NCBI GenBank assembly: GCA_001564065.1
Contig: LKNA01000020.1
Location: 1-43,237 of the forward strand
Origin: Chitinophagaceae bacterium T5-Br10_B2g13
GTDB lineage: Bacteria > Bacteroidota > Rhodothermia > Balneolales > Balneolaceae
DNA length: 43,237 nucleotides
Direction: 5' to 3'
The position numbers and the translations under genes are program-made. Under the pieces are notes generated by a model. That model saw nothing but the letters and a program-made list of their open reading frames with translations. It searched no databases and had not been told where the DNA came from. This document shows positions 847-8,488 of the stretch, in pieces (position 1 is the stretch's first letter; each line of letters starts with the position of its first letter).

Positions 847-2181
847 ATGAAAATTGGAGTTATTGGAACCGGTTATGTAGGCCTGGTATCGGGCACCTGC
901 TTTGCCGATAGCGGAAATGATGTGATCTGTGTAGACATCGATGAGAAGAAAGTGGAGAGAATGCGAGGGGGCGAAGTGCCGATCTATGAGCCGGGCCTGA
1001 ACCGGGTGTTTGACCGGTCGATCCGCGAAAAACGACTTTCGTTTACAACTGACCTGGAAGATGCTTTTCAGAAAAGCGACATAATTTTTCTCTGCCTGCC
1101 AACACCTCCCGGAGCCGACGGGCAGGCCGACCTGAGCTTTGTGCTGAATGTAGCCGACCAGCTGGGCGATCTGTTTAACAAGTATCCCGACTATAAGGTT
1201 GTTGTCAATAAAAGTACCGTTCCGGTGGGAACCGCCGACAAGGTTCGTGAGAAGATCGCGGCCAAAACGGACACTGAATTTGACGTGGTCTCTAATCCTG
1301 AGTTTTTGAGAGAGGGAGCCGCCGTGGAAGACTTTATGTACCCCGAGCGCGTGGTTGTGGGAACGAGCAGCGAGAAGGCAGCCAAGATGATGCAGACACT
1401 TTATGAGCCGTTTGTGCGCAGCGGGAACCCGATCATTATCATGGACGAGCGCAGCAGTGAGCTGACCAAGTATGCAGCCAATGCAATGTTGGCGACCAAG
1501 ATCACCTTCATGAACGAGATTGCCAATATCTGTGAGCGCGTAGGTGCCAACGTGGACAATGTGCGCCGCGGGATTGGAACCGACTCCCGAATTGGTAAGC
1601 GATTCCTGTTTGCCGGTATCGGATATGGCGGGAGCTGCTTTCCAAAAGATGTTCAGGCGATTCACCACACCGCGGGTGAGATGGGCTACGACTTTAAGAT
1701 TCTCGATTCGGTGATGAAGGTCAACGAATTCCAGAAGCTCTCCATCGTGGAGAAGATGAAAAAGCACTATGGCGATTCCCTGAAAGGGAAAACCGTAGGC
1801 GTCTGGGGTCTGTCGTTCAAGCCGGAAACCGATGATATCCGTGAAGCTCCTTCACTCTACATTACCGATGCACTCGGCAAGCTGGGCGTGAGCATGAAGG
1901 CGTACGATCCGGAAGCGATCGAAACCTTTAAAGAAGCGGCAACGGAAGATGCTTTGAACCATATAGAGTTTATGAGCGACCGCGATTCTGTACTGGACGA
2001 CGTGGACGCCCTGGTAATCTGCACCGAGTGGAATGAGTTTCGACGTCCGGACCTGGAGAACTTTGCCAAACGAATGAAAGAGCCGGTACTTTTTGACGGA
2101 CGTAACCTCTACGACCTGGAAAGAGCTAAAGAAGCCGGATTGACCTACATAAGTGTGGGACGGCCGAGCGTAAACGCATAA
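847..2181 (+). CDS. ugd: UDP-glucose 6-dehydrogenase
   Basis: The 444-residue protein oxidises UDP-glucose to UDP-glucuronate with two NAD+, in the cytoplasm. The N-terminal Rossmann motif GTGYVGLVSGTCFAD begins at residue 7. NPEFLREG lies in the middle, and the active-site YGGSCFPKD places the catalytic cysteine at residue 264. The C-terminal UDP-binding domain follows, with WGLSFKPETDDIREAPS. Length is normal for the family. It follows greA by one base. A strong hairpin lies between it and the UDP-glucuronate decarboxylase gene, whose product would use its product. GDP-mannose dehydrogenases are related, but the downstream neighbour favours UDP-glucose as substrate. Confidence 0.93.
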   Translation: MKIGVIGTGYVGLVSGTCFADSGNDVICVDIDEKKVERMRGGEVPIYEPGLNRVFDRSIREKRLSFTTDLEDAFQKSDIIFLCLPTPPGADGQADLSFVLNVADQLGDLFNKYPDYKVVVNKSTVPVGTADKVREKIAAKTDTEFDVVSNPEFLREGAAVEDFMYPERVVVGTSSEKAAKMMQTLYEPFVRSGNPIIIMDERSSELTKYAANAMLATKITFMNEIANICERVGANVDNVRRGIGTDSRIGKRFLFAGIGYGGSCFPKDVQAIHHTAGEMGYDFKILDSVMKVNEFQKLSIVEKMKKHYGDSLKGKTVGVWGLSFKPETDDIREAPSLYITDALGKLGVSMKAYDPEAIETFKEAATEDALNHIEFMSDRDSVLDDVDALVICTEWNEFRRPDLENFAKRMKEPVLFDGRNLYDLERAKEAGLTYISVGRPSVNA

Positions 2182-2201
2182 AGCATTTCCTGTTTATTGT
2201 A

Positions 2202-2238
2202 TTGGCAGCATCTTTTCTATGGATGCTGCCAAATTTTA
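2202..2238 (+). terminator. Hairpin between ugd and UXS gene
   Basis: A perfect 11-bp stem (TTGGCAGCATC / GATGCTGCCAA) with a 9-base loop is followed by ATTTTAG. It sits 20 bases after the ugd stop. It looks like an intrinsic terminator, though its T run is short. It could cause partial termination so that the decarboxylase gene is expressed at a different level. Confidence 0.6.
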
Positions 2239-2278
2239 GTACCTCTTGAAAAATTAAGCTGAAGTAATCCCCAAACCA

Positions 2279-3217
2279 TTGAGTAAACGTGTTCTCATTA
2301 CCGGCGGAGCCGGATTTTTAGGTTCTCATCTCTGCGATAAGTTTTATGATGAAGGCTGGGATGTGATCTGCATGGACAATCTTCTCACCGGCGCTGAATC
2401 AAATGTGGCCCACTTAATTGGAAAAGAGCGGTTTGAATTTATCAAACATGATGTAACCAATTACATTATTGTAAAGGAAGAGCTCGACTTGATTCTCCAT
2501 TTTGCATCTCCTGCGTCTCCCATTGACTACCTGGAAATGCCAATTCAGACGCTGAAGGTAGGGTCTTTGGGTACGCACAAAGCGCTCGGGCTGGCTAAGG
2601 CGAAAAATGCGAAATTGGTACTGGCTTCAACCAGTGAGGTGTATGGCGACCCTCAGGTAAATCCGCAAAATGAGGATTACTGGGGGAATGTGAATCCGGT
2701 AGGTCCAAGAGGTGTATATGACGAAGCCAAGCGATTTGCCGAGGCGATCACAATGGCCTATCACCGCTATCATGGTATCGAAACGGGAATTGTTCGTATT
2801 TTTAATACCTACGGTTCCAGAATGAGACTTAATGATGGACGAGCACTGCCTACTTTTTTCCGGCAAGCCATGAACAATGAGCCGATTACAGTATTCGGTG
2901 ACGGATCACAAACGCGTTCATTCATGTACGTGGAAGATCTGGTTGAAGGTGTATATCAGCTATCGATGAGTGACGAATCAGAGCCTGTGAATATTGGAAA
3001 TCCGGAAGAGATTACCATTCTGGACTTTGCAAAAGAGATTATTGAAATCACGGGAAGTAAAAGCGAGATAGTGTATAAAGAACTTCCTGAAGACGATCCG
3101 CAGGTTCGCCGCCCGGATGTATCCAAAGCAAAAAGGGTTCTGGACTGGGAGCCGAGATTCAATCGCAGAGAGGGACTTCTCAAAACCATGGAATATTTTA
3201 AAAATCAAGTGGGGTAG
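2279..3217 (+). CDS. UDP-glucuronate decarboxylase (UXS-type SDR)
   Basis: This is an extended short-chain dehydrogenase/reductase of 312 residues that is expected to turn UDP-glucuronate into UDP-xylose. The NAD-binding [10 protein letters not shown] is at residues 8-17. The UXS-typical STSEVYGDP is near 117-125, [13 protein letters not shown] near 132-144, and the catalytic YxxxK has Tyr147 and Lys151. The start is a TTG: an in-frame stop lies 24 bases upstream and no ATG fits the Rossmann N-terminus. UDP-xylose or a related pentose donor would feed surface glycans, but no glycosyltransferase is in view. The Nudix gene follows after four bases. Confidence 0.9.
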
Positions 3218-3221
3218 TTTA

Positions 3222-3680
3222 ATGGCAAAAAAACGTCTCATAGATCTCTATCCTTACAAAATAGTTAAAGATCGGCCCGAATTTTTATTGCTAAAGCGTG
3301 CCAAAGGTAAGATCTACCAGGGGCAGTGGAGAATGATTGGCGGGAAAGTTGAACCCGGTGAAACATCATGGCAGGCAGCACTGCGCGAGTTAAGCGAAGA
3401 GACAGGGTTAGTTCCTGACAAATTCTGGACAATCCCTTCAGTTAACACCTTTTATGAACATAAGAGAGATATGGTTCATCATATACCGGCCTTTGCAGCA
3501 GAGATACATTCAGCTAAAACACCCGAACTTGATGATGAGCATACCGAATTTGATTGGCTTGCGTTAGATGAGGCACTGAGTCGCATCAACTGGCCGGAAC
3601 AGCGAAGACTTATGAAGCTTACAAACTCCATTATAACCGAAAATGAAATCCTGGACGATTGGATCGTTTCTACTTCTTAA
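3222..3680 (+). CDS. Nudix hydrolase
   Basis: The 152-residue protein carries a complete Nudix box (G-x5-E-x7-REL-x-EE-x-G-L) beginning at GGKVEPGE and ending at RELSEETGL. It should therefore bind Mg2+ and hydrolyse a nucleoside diphosphate linked to another group. The size and the DEHTEFDWL region recall dihydroneopterin-triphosphate and dNTP pyrophosphatases, but the substrate cannot be read from sequence. I chose ATG 3222 ([15 protein letters not shown]) because it lies four bases after the decarboxylase stop. The frame stays open 35 codons further upstream inside that gene, and this part has no Nudix character. The 3' end overlaps the barrel gene by 22 bases. Confidence 0.85.
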
Positions 3681-4894
3681 TACCAGCACTTATTTTTATT
3701 ACTGTTTGGATTGCACCTGTACAAACAGCTGCTCAGTCTTCATCAAGCTATGAACTGATTCCGAAACCCGATCTGTGGTATAACGATGTAGACGGTATAC
3801 GAGTCGGTGTTCGTGTAAAAGGACAGGTGCCCGGAACCTTCGATGATGGACCTCACCGGCTTGATGCAGGATTGTGGCTAAGCACCTGGTTCCCCGATTT
3901 GCCGGTTTCATACTACGCATCGTATACCAATCCCATTGACCAGTGGTCGGATTTTGGCAGTGAGGCCAGTTACCAATTTATTACCTCTGTTCGTGCCGGT
4001 TACCATCGCCACGGGATTGCATTCAATAAGCGATGGCAAGAAGGGTTTGACGAACGCAGATACCGGGAGCTGAGCCTTTTCAACTCTTTCGAAAAACGAT
4101 TTGACCACGAGTATGCTGCGTTTCCACAGCTTTGGGGGAGTGAGAGTAAACTTTTATCAACCCTGACGGGTGAGCTTAAAAATAACAATAGCCTGGGATG
4201 GTATAAAATTGATGCTTCACTTGGGGTTCAATACTTAAACGAATTTTATACTCAGTTTCACGGCTCGTTTATTCAAAACGTGGAATTTCATGAATACTGG
4301 GGGTTAAATCTTAGATTGTTTACCGGTATTGCTTCGTCGAATGCCGATCCCGAGTATATGTTCTCCAGAAGCAGCGCACCGGCAATTCAGACCATTTACA
4401 GCGGAGTAACCCGTGCAAAAGGTACAATACCTCAACCCTGGATGGAGAGTGGTAAATTTCAGGTAGCCGGTGGAGCAATTTTGCGAGGATACACCGGTCA
4501 GGATATTGAAACGTTTGTTAACAATGATCCCGATGCATTTGTGACGCCTTTCCTCATGAATTCCATCGCTTCTGTTAATGCCGAATTTGACTACTTCAAT
4601 CCAATTGCTTTGGGCTTTAACCGGATACCTTATCTGAGTGAGTTTCTCAGTTTCCGGTCATACCTGTTTTTTGATGCCGGCAGATCTCTGGAGCTTTTCG
4701 ATAATGAACCCGATAATCTTTATGCTGATGCGGGAGCAGGATTCTCCTTATCTTTAAATATTCCGGATTATCTGGGTAAACCGCGTGGATTTGTATTTCG
4801 ATATGAACTGCCTGTTTGGTTATCGGAACCCGGTATGGAAGACTCTTTTAAATTAAGACATCTGTTTTCATTCGGAGCTGTATTTTCACTCTGA
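3659..4894 (+). CDS. Outer-membrane beta-barrel protein, Omp85/D15 surface-antigen type
   Basis: This 411-residue protein starts at a TTG inside the Nudix gene and has a signal peptide ending near APVQTAAQ (about residue 26). The rest is rich in alternating aromatic residues. The C-terminal half holds an Omp85-like LRGY element (L275-Y278, in [12 protein letters not shown]), a strand with FFDAGRSLE, and a closing part with [11 protein letters not shown] and ELPVW. These are features of the BamA/TamA/D15 barrel. There is no room for POTRA domains, because the barrel begins soon after the signal peptide. The early [15 protein letters not shown] segment resembles barrels fused to some Bacteroidota peptidases. 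The function is unknown. It is nine bases upstream of the pseudo-caspase lipoprotein, so a joint role in the outer membrane is possible. Confidence 0.65.
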
Positions 4895-4903
4895 TCTTGA
4901 ACT

Positions 4904-6634
4904 ATGAGAAGTATATTTACACTCATCTTATTCGCTGTTTTTCTGGCTTCTTGCACTACAACGAGGTGGGTTGTAACGGATCAGTATGCAGTAGATGAGT
5001 CAGCTGAACCTCGTGTGGTACAGGATGAGCAGGCATTCATCTTAGAGCAGGAACCAGCTGTAGATGAACCTATAGCCGGTTTTCAGCTCTATCAGATTAA
5101 AGAATTGCAACTTCCTGAAAGAGTTCGGGTAGAAAGGACAGTTCAGCAGTATAAGCCGAAATGGGAATTTGTGCTCATTGGCCTGACCGGTGCAGCTGTA
5201 GCAGCAGTTGCTGCTAATACCGGAGTCATTTTATCGGGAGTATCCACTACTCAACAAATTGGACTGAATCTTTCAGCCGGTCTCATTTCCATACTCTCGT
5301 TCACGAACCTTGAAAAGGTCGGTGAACCCATATATACAGGTGAAACCAAACTGATGCGGCAAAGTGGTGTTGAAACCAGAACAGACTCAGTTATGGTGCA
5401 GACTGAAGAAACCTATGTGAATGTGCAAATTTTGTTGCAGGATGAAACACTTTTTTCGCAGGAGGAAGTACCGGCCGCCGACGGTAAGTTAAATCTGAAC
5501 TTGGGCTCATTCGCTGATGAGATGAGTGGCAAAATCGATAGGGGTTCAGCAATAAGGGTATTGTTGCGCCACGAAGAATTTGAAAATGAGTTTACTATTC
5601 CAACGGCTCAGTTTCTTGCTCCTTATCTGAATATAAATTCATTGGTGGCGAATCTGCGCAGTACTCCGGAACCCGGTGAGCTGAATATTGTGACTGAAGT
5701 GGGGCAGGGCAGTTTTTTAGAGCTGGTGGATGAAGAAGATGGTTTCTACAGAGTACAGTATGAGGGGAATGATTACTTTGTAAGTAAAGATAGCGGAAGT
5801 ATTGAGTGGCTCAGTACAGCTGAAGCAGGTTCTGCTCTCGTTTTTGAATTTGCGGAACTCCCTTTTGGTGAAATTGATGTAGAACACTCGATGCCGGTGC
5901 TCAAACCGAATAACCCATCTGACAGAGGTCTGATTATATCAAACGGAATGAATAACGAAATAGGCCACAGACAGTACCTGGATCGTGATCATAAGCTGTT
6001 TGAAACCTATTTAAATACCTCATTCAGGCTACAAAATGAACAAATTAACACGATTACCGGCCGGCAGATTTTATCCCGGCTAGAGGGGGTGAACGTTATG
6101 GATGGAGAAGGATCTCTTTACGTTTATCTAAGTGGATTCGGAGAAATCAGAGAGATTAATAATCAGCCTGTTATTCATCTGGTTTCAAAATTTGGTGAGA
6201 ATGAGGTCTTCATCCCGATAACTGAGATTCTTTCAGAACTAAAGCGTATAAATCCGGAAGCTCTCTTCCTATTTATTGATCTGGATTATTCTGAAAGCAA
6301 CCGTCAGACCTCGAATGGTATTCTCCGAAACGGTATGTCGGGATTGTTACAACGAACGGCCAATATTATTGTTAGAGATCTACCTAATTCGGCCGTGGTG
6401 TTCAGCAATCGTCCGGGCCAACAGTCTTCCATTTACACCGGTATCATTGATGGAAATATGAGGCATTCGATTTTCAATTATTTCCTTGCCGAAGCCATTC
6501 AGCAGCGAAGGACCCGAATGTCTGATTTGGTTAATCATCTGGATAGAAATGTGGACTACACATCCAGGCGGCTCCACGACCAGCCACAGGAAATCCAGGC
6601 GTTTGGGAATTTAAACCTTAATTTGGCCCAATGA
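4904..6634 (+). CDS. Lipoprotein with SH3-like and degenerate caspase-like domains
   Basis: The 576-residue protein begins with a lipoprotein signal (lipobox LASC, Cys17). A hydrophobic hairpin lies at about residues 88-135. A bacterial SH3-like segment (NLRSTPEPGEL ... GFYRVQYEGNDYFV) spans about 248-296. The C-terminal part from about residue 325 follows the caspase/peptidase C14 pattern, including the late HSIFNYFLAEAI helix. The strand that normally ends in SGHG reads YVYLSGFGE, with Phe412 at the His position. The strand that normally reads DAC reads FLFIDLDYS, with Asp461 at the Cys position. The catalytic dyad therefore appears lost, and a binding or scaffold role in the envelope is my inference. 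It shares a transcript with the barrel gene and overlaps the DMT gene by ATGA. Confidence 0.65.
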   Translation: MRSIFTLILFAVFLASCTTTRWVVTDQYAVDESAEPRVVQDEQAFILEQEPAVDEPIAGFQLYQIKELQLPERVRVERTVQQYKPKWEFVLIGLTGAAVAAVAANTGVILSGVSTTQQIGLNLSAGLISILSFTNLEKVGEPIYTGETKLMRQSGVETRTDSVMVQTEETYVNVQILLQDETLFSQEEVPAADGKLNLNLGSFADEMSGKIDRGSAIRVLLRHEEFENEFTIPTAQFLAPYLNINSLVANLRSTPEPGELNIVTEVGQGSFLELVDEEDGFYRVQYEGNDYFVSKDSGSIEWLSTAEAGSALVFEFAELPFGEIDVEHSMPVLKPNNPSDRGLIISNGMNNEIGHRQYLDRDHKLFETYLNTSFRLQNEQINTITGRQILSRLEGVNVMDGEGSLYVYLSGFGEIREINNQPVIHLVSKFGENEVFIPITEILSELKRINPEALFLFIDLDYSESNRQTSNGILRNGMSGLLQRTANIIVRDLPNSAVVFSNRPGQQSSIYTGIIDGNMRHSIFNYFLAEAIQQRRTRMSDLVNHLDRNVDYTSRRLHDQPQEIQAFGNLNLNLAQ

Positions 6635-7494
6635 TTTCAGGCTGGTTGTATATCGTACTTTGTGCAGCCTCTTCAGTACTGATTGCCCACCTATTAAAGG
6701 TTGTAGAAAACAGGAAGCTAAATACAGTTCGTGTATTGACAGTCAACTATTTTACAGCTACCGTTATAGCAGCTTCGACTACAGGCTTTGATCAGATCAT
6801 TCAGCTGGATTTCTCTGAGGGATTTTATGCAATTGCACTTGGTGCTGTAGTTGGGGTAATATTTATTGCCAATTTTTTCATCTACAGCAAATCCGTACAT
6901 CACAACGGGGTTGGTATAAGTGTAGCGGCTATGCGCATCTCCCTGATCGTTCCGGTTTTGCTTTCTACAGCGTGGTACCTCGAGCTGCTTACTTTCAGAC
7001 AGTGGGTTGGGGTAGTGCTGGTATTTGTAACACTCTTTTTACTGCTTCCAAATAAACGGAAAATGTTAAGAGAACCATTAAGTGTAGCATGGTTATTGGT
7101 GCTTCTGTTTATTGGTACCGGATTGGGAGATTCCTCTCTGAAAATCTATGAGGTGGAGTTCTCATCAATTTTGAGCAAAGAGCACTTCATGGGAATTGTC
7201 TTTTTTACTGCATTTTTGGTTGGATTGATTGTAGTTTCCTTAAGGAAAAACTGGAAGTTTAAAATGCAGGAAATCATTTTAGGTATAGCCGTTGGTATTC
7301 CAAACCTGTATACAGCAATTTTTTTGATTGAAGCACTGGAACGCATGAACGGAGCCGTTGTTTACAGTAGTGTGAACGTGCTCACTGTTTTGGGAGGTAC
7401 GCTGCTGGGGATCATAAAGTGGGGGGATAAGCTGACCAGGATTCAATGGACGGGAATTGTACTTACACTAATCACAATTTTATTATTGATTTAA
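6631..7494 (+). CDS. DMT-family (EamA-like) membrane transporter
   Basis: The 287-residue protein is hydrophobic throughout, with roughly ten predicted transmembrane helices in two similar halves. This is the plan of drug/metabolite transporters of the EamA type. The second half ends with GGTLLGIIKWGDKLTRIQWTGIVL, a common final-helix pattern in that superfamily. No substrate can be inferred. The start overlaps the stop of the pseudo-caspase gene (ATGA), which points to translational coupling, and pta starts one base after its stop. Confidence 0.8.
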   Translation: MISGWLYIVLCAASSVLIAHLLKVVENRKLNTVRVLTVNYFTATVIAASTTGFDQIIQLDFSEGFYAIALGAVVGVIFIANFFIYSKSVHHNGVGISVAAMRISLIVPVLLSTAWYLELLTFRQWVGVVLVFVTLFLLLPNKRKMLREPLSVAWLLVLLFIGTGLGDSSLKIYEVEFSSILSKEHFMGIVFFTAFLVGLIVVSLRKNWKFKMQEIILGIAVGIPNLYTAIFLIEALERMNGAVVYSSVNVLTVLGGTLLGIIKWGDKLTRIQWTGIVLTLITILLLI

Positions 7495-7495
7495 T

Positions 7496-8488
7496 ATGAG
7501 TTTAATCGAAGAGATCAGAAAGAAAGCATCAGCTATTAAAAAAAGAGTTGTTCTGCCTGAGGCTGAGGTGGATGCCCGGGTTCTGAAAGCCGCGGCTACA
7601 CTGAGCGGAATGGGGCTTGCAGAACCGATTCTTTTAGGTGATCCGAATACTATAAATCAGCTGGCGGATGAACATGAGGTTGACCTGCCTGATTCGGTAG
7701 TGATCAAACCGTATAAGAATTCAGAATTTGATGACGAAAAATTTGAGTATTTCAAAAAGAAACTGGCTCATAAAAATCCAACAGAAGATCAATTGCTTGA
7801 GATTAGTCTGAACTCTCTGTTTACGGCCGGCTGGATGCTTGATACAGGGAAAGCGGATGCCGCAGTAGCAGGGTCGGTAGCTTCAACCGGTCAGGTTATT
7901 GTTTCTGCCTTACGCACTGTTGGAGTTGCTGAGGGATCAGAGTTGGTTTCCAGTACATTTTTGATGGAGATGCCCGGTGGAGATGTCTTTACCTATGCAG
8001 ATTGTGCGGTTGTTCCATATCCCGATTCAGATCAGCTTGCTTCCATTGCACTGGATGCAGGGAATACACATAGACTTTTGACAGGAGATGAGCCGCGCAT
8101 CGCATTTCTCTCATTTTCAACGAAAGGCAGTGCAAAACATGAGAAAGTAGAACTGGTGCAAAATGCATATCAGAAAGCGAAAAAGGTAAAACCGGGCTGG
8201 AAGATGGACGGTGAGCTTCAGTTTGATACAGCTTTTGTTCCAGATGTTGCCAAACGTAAAGCTCCCGACTCAGACGTTGGGGGAGAGGCGAACGTGTTTA
8301 TATTTCCAAATCTGGACGCAGGAAATATCGCATACAAGATAACAGAACGGCTGGCCGGTGCATCGGCAACAGGTCCGATTTTGCAGGGGCTGTCTAAACC
8401 TTACATGGACCTTTCCAGAGGGTGTTCTGTAGACGATATCGTAAATACCGCCTGTGTGGCATCTCTGATCAGTAAAAAACAGGGTTAA
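7496..8488 (+). CDS. pta: Phosphate acetyltransferase
   Basis: The 330-residue protein is the short, single-domain form of phosphotransacetylase, which interconverts acetyl-CoA and acetyl phosphate. Diagnostic segments are KKRVVLPEAEVDARVLKAA at the N-terminus, GKADAAVAGSVASTGQV in the middle, and FPNLDAGNIAYKITERLAG followed by GPILQGLSKPYMDLSRGCS near the C-terminus. Acetate kinase, the usual partner, is not in the window. The gene starts one base after the transporter gene and is probably the last of that operon. It is followed by 232 non-coding or barely coding bases before sufB. Confidence 0.95.
   Translation: MSLIEEIRKKASAIKKRVVLPEAEVDARVLKAAATLSGMGLAEPILLGDPNTINQLADEHEVDLPDSVVIKPYKNSEFDDEKFEYFKKKLAHKNPTEDQLLEISLNSLFTAGWMLDTGKADAAVAGSVASTGQVIVSALRTVGVAEGSELVSSTFLMEMPGGDVFTYADCAVVPYPDSDQLASIALDAGNTHRLLTGDEPRIAFLSFSTKGSAKHEKVELVQNAYQKAKKVKPGWKMDGELQFDTAFVPDVAKRKAPDSDVGGEANVFIFPNLDAGNIAYKITERLAGASATGPILQGLSKPYMDLSRGCSVDDIVNTACVASLISKKQG

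Follow-up and report, generated by a model that had tools for sequence, protein, structure and literature searches.

The locus and its genes

We analysed a 43,237-nucleotide stretch of DNA (the window) in which a plus-strand open reading frame at 4904..6634 encodes a 576-residue lipoprotein, hereafter the pseudo-caspase; the reverse complement of this frame, as translated, contains many stops. Upstream on the same strand lies a gene for a 411-residue outer-membrane beta-barrel-like protein (3659..4894), whose stop codon is separated from the start of the pseudo-caspase gene by nine bases (TGA TCTTGAACT ATG). Downstream, an EamA-type transporter gene (6631..7494, plus strand) overlaps the pseudo-caspase gene by four bases (ATGA). 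The frame, the nine-base gap, Phe412 and Asp461 agree with an initial annotation of this DNA, as does the presence of a lipobox (here LASC, Cys17).

Across relatives the usual gene order is greA-(ugd-uxs)-nudix-barrel-(ackA)-pseudo-caspase-(eamA)-pta-suf. In some genera, the window's among them, the barrel gene directly adjoins the pseudo-caspase gene; most other genera of the order have an acetate kinase gene between the two, and elsewhere the barrel gene is kilobases away. We considered whether relatives encode an active caspase in this gap, and the gap gene is acetate kinase. The window's own genome has ackA on another contig (C188), with pta staying in place (3117-8488), and locus L074 (minus strand, 1094-3759 of the reverse complement) carries two tandem barrel copies upstream of ackA. 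The barrel protein had no match in Pfam. In hhalign comparisons a single Omp85 protein encoded in this genome matched it (54% probability, E = 1.3e-4) and others did not; this weak profile similarity, with LRGY and FxDAG motifs identified by eye, suggests only tentatively that the barrel is of the Omp85 type given in the initial annotation.

A lipid-anchored N-terminal half

The pseudo-caspase begins with a lipoprotein signal peptide and lipobox (residues 1-17; 4904..4954) ending in Cys17, which is present in all 66 family members (66/66) and followed by Thr or Ser, as in bacterial lipoproteins. Folded on its own with AlphaFold, the N-terminal part reached a pLDDT of 93. Between the lipid anchor and an SH3b domain, the models place two long beta strands of about 29 residues each (residues 57-85, 5072..5158; residues 136-164, 5309..5395) on either side of a helical hairpin (residues 87-134; 5162..5305) with predicted helices at 87-105 and 115-134. 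The hairpin had been described as hydrophobic; its helical form is upheld by the prediction, but its hydrophobicity is only moderate, a 19-residue stretch reaching a Kyte-Doolittle value of 1.6 in helix 1 of 13/66 members and in helix 2 of 2/66, so a transmembrane state is at most a possibility. The SH3-like segment that follows is a bacterial SH3 (SH3b) domain (residues 239-304; 5618..5815): Pfam SH3_3 matched 12 of 40 members (best 6.4e-7), and VIA-align gave Z scores of 9-11 to bacterial SH3 domains, many from cell-wall enzymes. Besides this SH3 part, a limited search, which does not by itself establish a new fold, gave no convincing solved relative of the N-terminal beta/hairpin region. 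Trp22, Arg78 and Gln81 are invariant in this half of the protein, which, with its hairpin, was confined to the pseudo-caspase family when 395 genomes of the phylum were searched.

A caspase fold without the His-Cys dyad

No caspase match came from searching Pfam, NCBIfam and the PDB with the single sequence of the window protein, and a profile search of PDB sequences returned SH3-type matches only, among the matches listed; fold prediction and relatives were therefore needed to identify the C-terminal half. An AlphaFold model built on a 40-sequence alignment had a mean pLDDT of 87.5, and its residues 334-576 (5903..6631) matched caspase-11 best in the PDB (VIA-align Z 18.9, 2.9 Å over 201 residues); metacaspase 4, CED-3 and MALT1 scored about 18. 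Foldseek also matched the caspase fold (E = 1e-7), Pfam Peptidase_C14 scored above its gathering cut-off in distant relatives (L032 and L041, and in G033, G038, G041 and G056), and the family profile matched C14 proteins with an intact dyad at E values of about 1e-31 to 1e-34. Predicted structure, Foldseek, VIA-align, Pfam and the family profile thus agree on the caspase fold that the initial annotation had proposed for this half, and homology places the protein in clan CD, family C14.

In the family alignment, Phe412 (6137..6139) occupies the position of the catalytic His and Asp461 (6284..6286) that of the catalytic Cys. Among the 66 members, position 412 is Tyr in 28, Phe in 20, His in 8, Ser in 5 and other residues in the remainder, and position 461 is Asp in 40, Glu in 16, Gln in 6, Ser in 2, His in 1 and Met in 1, never Cys; the latter is thus Asp, Glu or Gln in 62/66 and acidic in 56/66, and 64/66 caspase domains are entirely free of Cys. 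Homologous domains outside the family, picked up with the family profile, carry GHG and DxC, those of L046 and L047, for instance, lining up with positions 412 and 461. With the dyad (SGHG...DAC) in register in related proteins elsewhere in the phylum, its loss in the pseudo-caspase family is secure. When 35 members and 11 dyad-bearing proteins were put in one tree, the family fell on one side of a branch with support 100/97. All eight His412 members belong to one family, f3, which suggested that the Cys was lost before the His, but the tree does not fix the position of f3. Lacking the His-Cys dyad of active C14 peptidases (orthocaspases or metacaspases), the protein is a bacterial C14 homologue with a substituted dyad, that is, a pseudo-orthocaspase. 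The dead caspase-like envelope lipoprotein first read from the single sequence was borne out, and the loss extends to the whole family.

Asp459, Arg555 and Gln562 are fully invariant in the caspase domain. Asp459 (6278..6280; 66/66) lies two residues before the Cys position, and Asp362, which sits in an ND motif, is kept in 52/66 members and replaced by Thr or Ser in 12/66. The two metacaspase S1 aspartates recognise Arg or Lys. From motifs rather than a solved complex, we take Asp459 to correspond to Asp211, and Asp362 to Asp95, of Trypanosoma brucei MCA2. Both MCA2 aspartates are reported to belong to a potential S1 pocket (PMC4357240). We considered whether Arg361 (65/66) plugs the S1 pocket in this family alone and dropped the idea, since Arg occurs at this position in several dyad-bearing relatives too.

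Distribution and selection

Homologues occur in 47 of 58 relatives, one per genome. They cover four of the order's five families; the fifth, f4, yielded none among these relatives, nor was a divergent pseudo-caspase copy present at the barrel locus there. Across the 395 genomes of the phylum, full-length matches were restricted to the order (Balneolales), and outside it the profile matched the caspase part only (within about 316-579). A contig scan yielded 47 loci labelled Balneolaceae, Balneolales, Rhodohalobacter, Gracilimonas or Balneola, or just with a higher taxon, such as Bacteroidetes or Rhodothermia. At L140 (5934-8076), in genome G029, the pseudo-caspase gene is precisely missing between the barrel gene and eamA, a clean absence at a syntenic site that marks the gene as dispensable there. 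G029 carries three canonical C14 genes elsewhere. Canonical C14 genes were found in only two of the 58 relatives, G011 and G029, and the window's own genome has no other Peptidase_C14 match. G305, a genome of the same family, has a dyad-bearing lipoprotein caspase (L046, minus strand, open reading frame at 2041-3322 of the reverse complement) in addition to its pseudo-caspase.

In close pairs, dN/dS was 0.05-0.17 for the caspase domain and 0.04-0.12 for the N-terminal half, which shows that the dead domain is maintained. Mean entropy was 2.17 in the N-terminal half versus 2.26 in the caspase domain, and the latter is full-length in all complete members.

Comparison with known caspase homologues

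An earlier survey found an intact dyad in 84% of bacterial homologues (PMC3501461). Of the bacterial pseudo-orthocaspases, 90% come from Alphaproteobacteria and Cyanobacteria, the count for Bacteroidetes sequences being 10/1078 (PMC6426788, Klemencic et al. 2019), and deletion of one of them, SyOC, raises oxidative-stress tolerance in Synechocystis (PMC7889975). Like the Balneolales family, these are bacterial C14 proteins of caspase fold in which the His-Cys dyad has been lost; in both groups Tyr often takes the place of the His, the protein may be the genome's only caspase homologue, and it is presumed to be non-proteolytic. The known pseudo-orthocaspases, however, are mostly cyanobacterial or alphaproteobacterial and combine Tyr with Ser, Asn or Gly, the cyanobacterial YS group having a TAT-like signal, whereas the Balneolales proteins combine Phe or Tyr with Asp, Glu or Gln and carry a lipoprotein anchor, a helical hairpin and SH3b. 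The view that such a protein had not been described goes too far: pseudo-orthocaspases are already in the literature, although with other residues and architectures. Among the papers searched, none combined Balneolaceae with caspase. What is new here is an envelope-anchored form with a cell-wall (SH3b) module and a Phe/Tyr-Asp/Glu pair.

Dyad-bearing Peptidase_C14 (PF00656) proteins of the same phylum, such as L046 and L047, share the homologous caspase domain and a C-terminal RR...Q motif, and two appear to be lipoproteins, but they have SGHG or GHG with DAC and other N-terminal regions, without the hairpin and SH3b module. Metacaspases, of which T. brucei MCA2 is an example, likewise have the caspase fold and aspartates at the S1 positions and, unlike the pseudo-caspase, are active His-Cys proteases with no lipid anchor. 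Residues 239-304 align with SH3_3 domains of cell-wall hydrolases, although the pseudo-caspase has no attached hydrolase domain.

Discussion

That the protein is a catalytically dead caspase homologue at the envelope is, in our judgement, almost certain. With the cutting residues lost across the family and the fold strictly kept, its most likely activity is binding, not cleavage, and we assign a probability of roughly 0.4 to the reading as a whole, an envelope-anchored pseudo-caspase that binds without cutting. Its N-terminal lipid, probably with the helical hairpin, would hold it at the cell envelope, where the SH3b module may dock on peptidoglycan. The caspase-like domain would retain a substrate pocket formed by the invariant Asp459 and the mostly conserved Asp362, capturing a basic peptide or protein segment without cleaving it, and the protein would serve as an envelope receptor or scaffold, not a protease; the scaffold or sensing role proposed in the initial annotation is plausible. 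Our proposal of non-catalytic binding to basic segments draws on retention of these S1-position aspartates, and at the level of sequence we advance the capture mechanism tentatively, at somewhat less than even odds. Both aspartates may be retained for fold stability alone, and they are general features of dyad-bearing relatives too, which counts against the pocket reading. More doubtful is the fullest version, a lipid-anchored, peptidoglycan-docked pseudo-caspase with an Arg/Lys-specific S1 pocket that would capture basic periplasmic peptides in most families of the order, in genomes mostly without an active caspase.

Alternatively, the caspase domain could be a structural remnant, with function residing in the anchor, hairpin and SH3b half, which might, for example, link the envelope membrane and peptidoglycan. 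This half is indeed unique to the family, has its own invariant residues and is conserved like the caspase domain, but comparably strong purifying selection on the caspase domain, its full length and its three invariant residues speak against a remnant, a reading we consider rather unlikely. A dedicated accessory or scaffold of the adjacent barrel, as in other barrel-lipoprotein pairs, would fit the close same-strand spacing and the barrel's position upstream, adjacent or across ackA, in most loci with enough sequence. Of the 11 genomes that yielded no caspase gene, however, 10 have the barrel gene, versus 42/47 of those with a caspase gene (Fisher p = 1), and no barrel gene was found in G031, G046 and G049 despite their caspase gene; the barrel-positive, caspase-gene-negative genomes are all but one of f4, plus that of L140. 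More broadly, this conserved barrel family is kept in almost every genome of the order, also where the pseudo-caspase is missing. With ackA intervening or the barrel kilobases off in other genera, and with the whole neighbourhood syntenic so that proximity says little, the barrel is not an obligatory partner, and we regard a dedicated scaffold as improbable. The link to the barrel drawn in the initial annotation is thus weak, and the joint conservation of Phe and Asp with the barrel gene, which it put forward for checking, is not supported, as positions 412 and 461 vary and the genes co-occur no better than chance.

The protein could still be an enzyme of other chemistry, in which the acidic pair 459/461 acts together with a metal, or some other nucleophile takes over, in line with the invariant Asp459 and the mostly acidic position 461. 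Yet 461 may also be Gln, Ser, His or Met and the His position varies freely, and dyad-bearing relatives also have the conserved Ser508 and His521, which therefore form no new catalytic set; we hold this to be very improbable. Some animal pseudo-caspases regulate active caspases by dimerising, and a c-FLIP-like regulator of an active C14 protease would suit G305, with its dyad-bearing lipoprotein caspase. No such partner, however, was found in the window's own genome, and of the two relatives with a canonical C14, the pseudo-caspase was not found in G029. Because most of these genomes lack an active C14 protease, a c-FLIP-like role seems scarcely credible.

Pseudo-proteases are well studied in animals, and few bacterial ones have an assigned function. 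Single-copy and syntenic across the order, evolving under purifying selection and in most cases unaccompanied by an active C14 paralogue, this family is suited to direct testing. It could show what a caspase fold does after catalysis is lost and, if the receptor reading is true, would represent an envelope receptor made from a protease.
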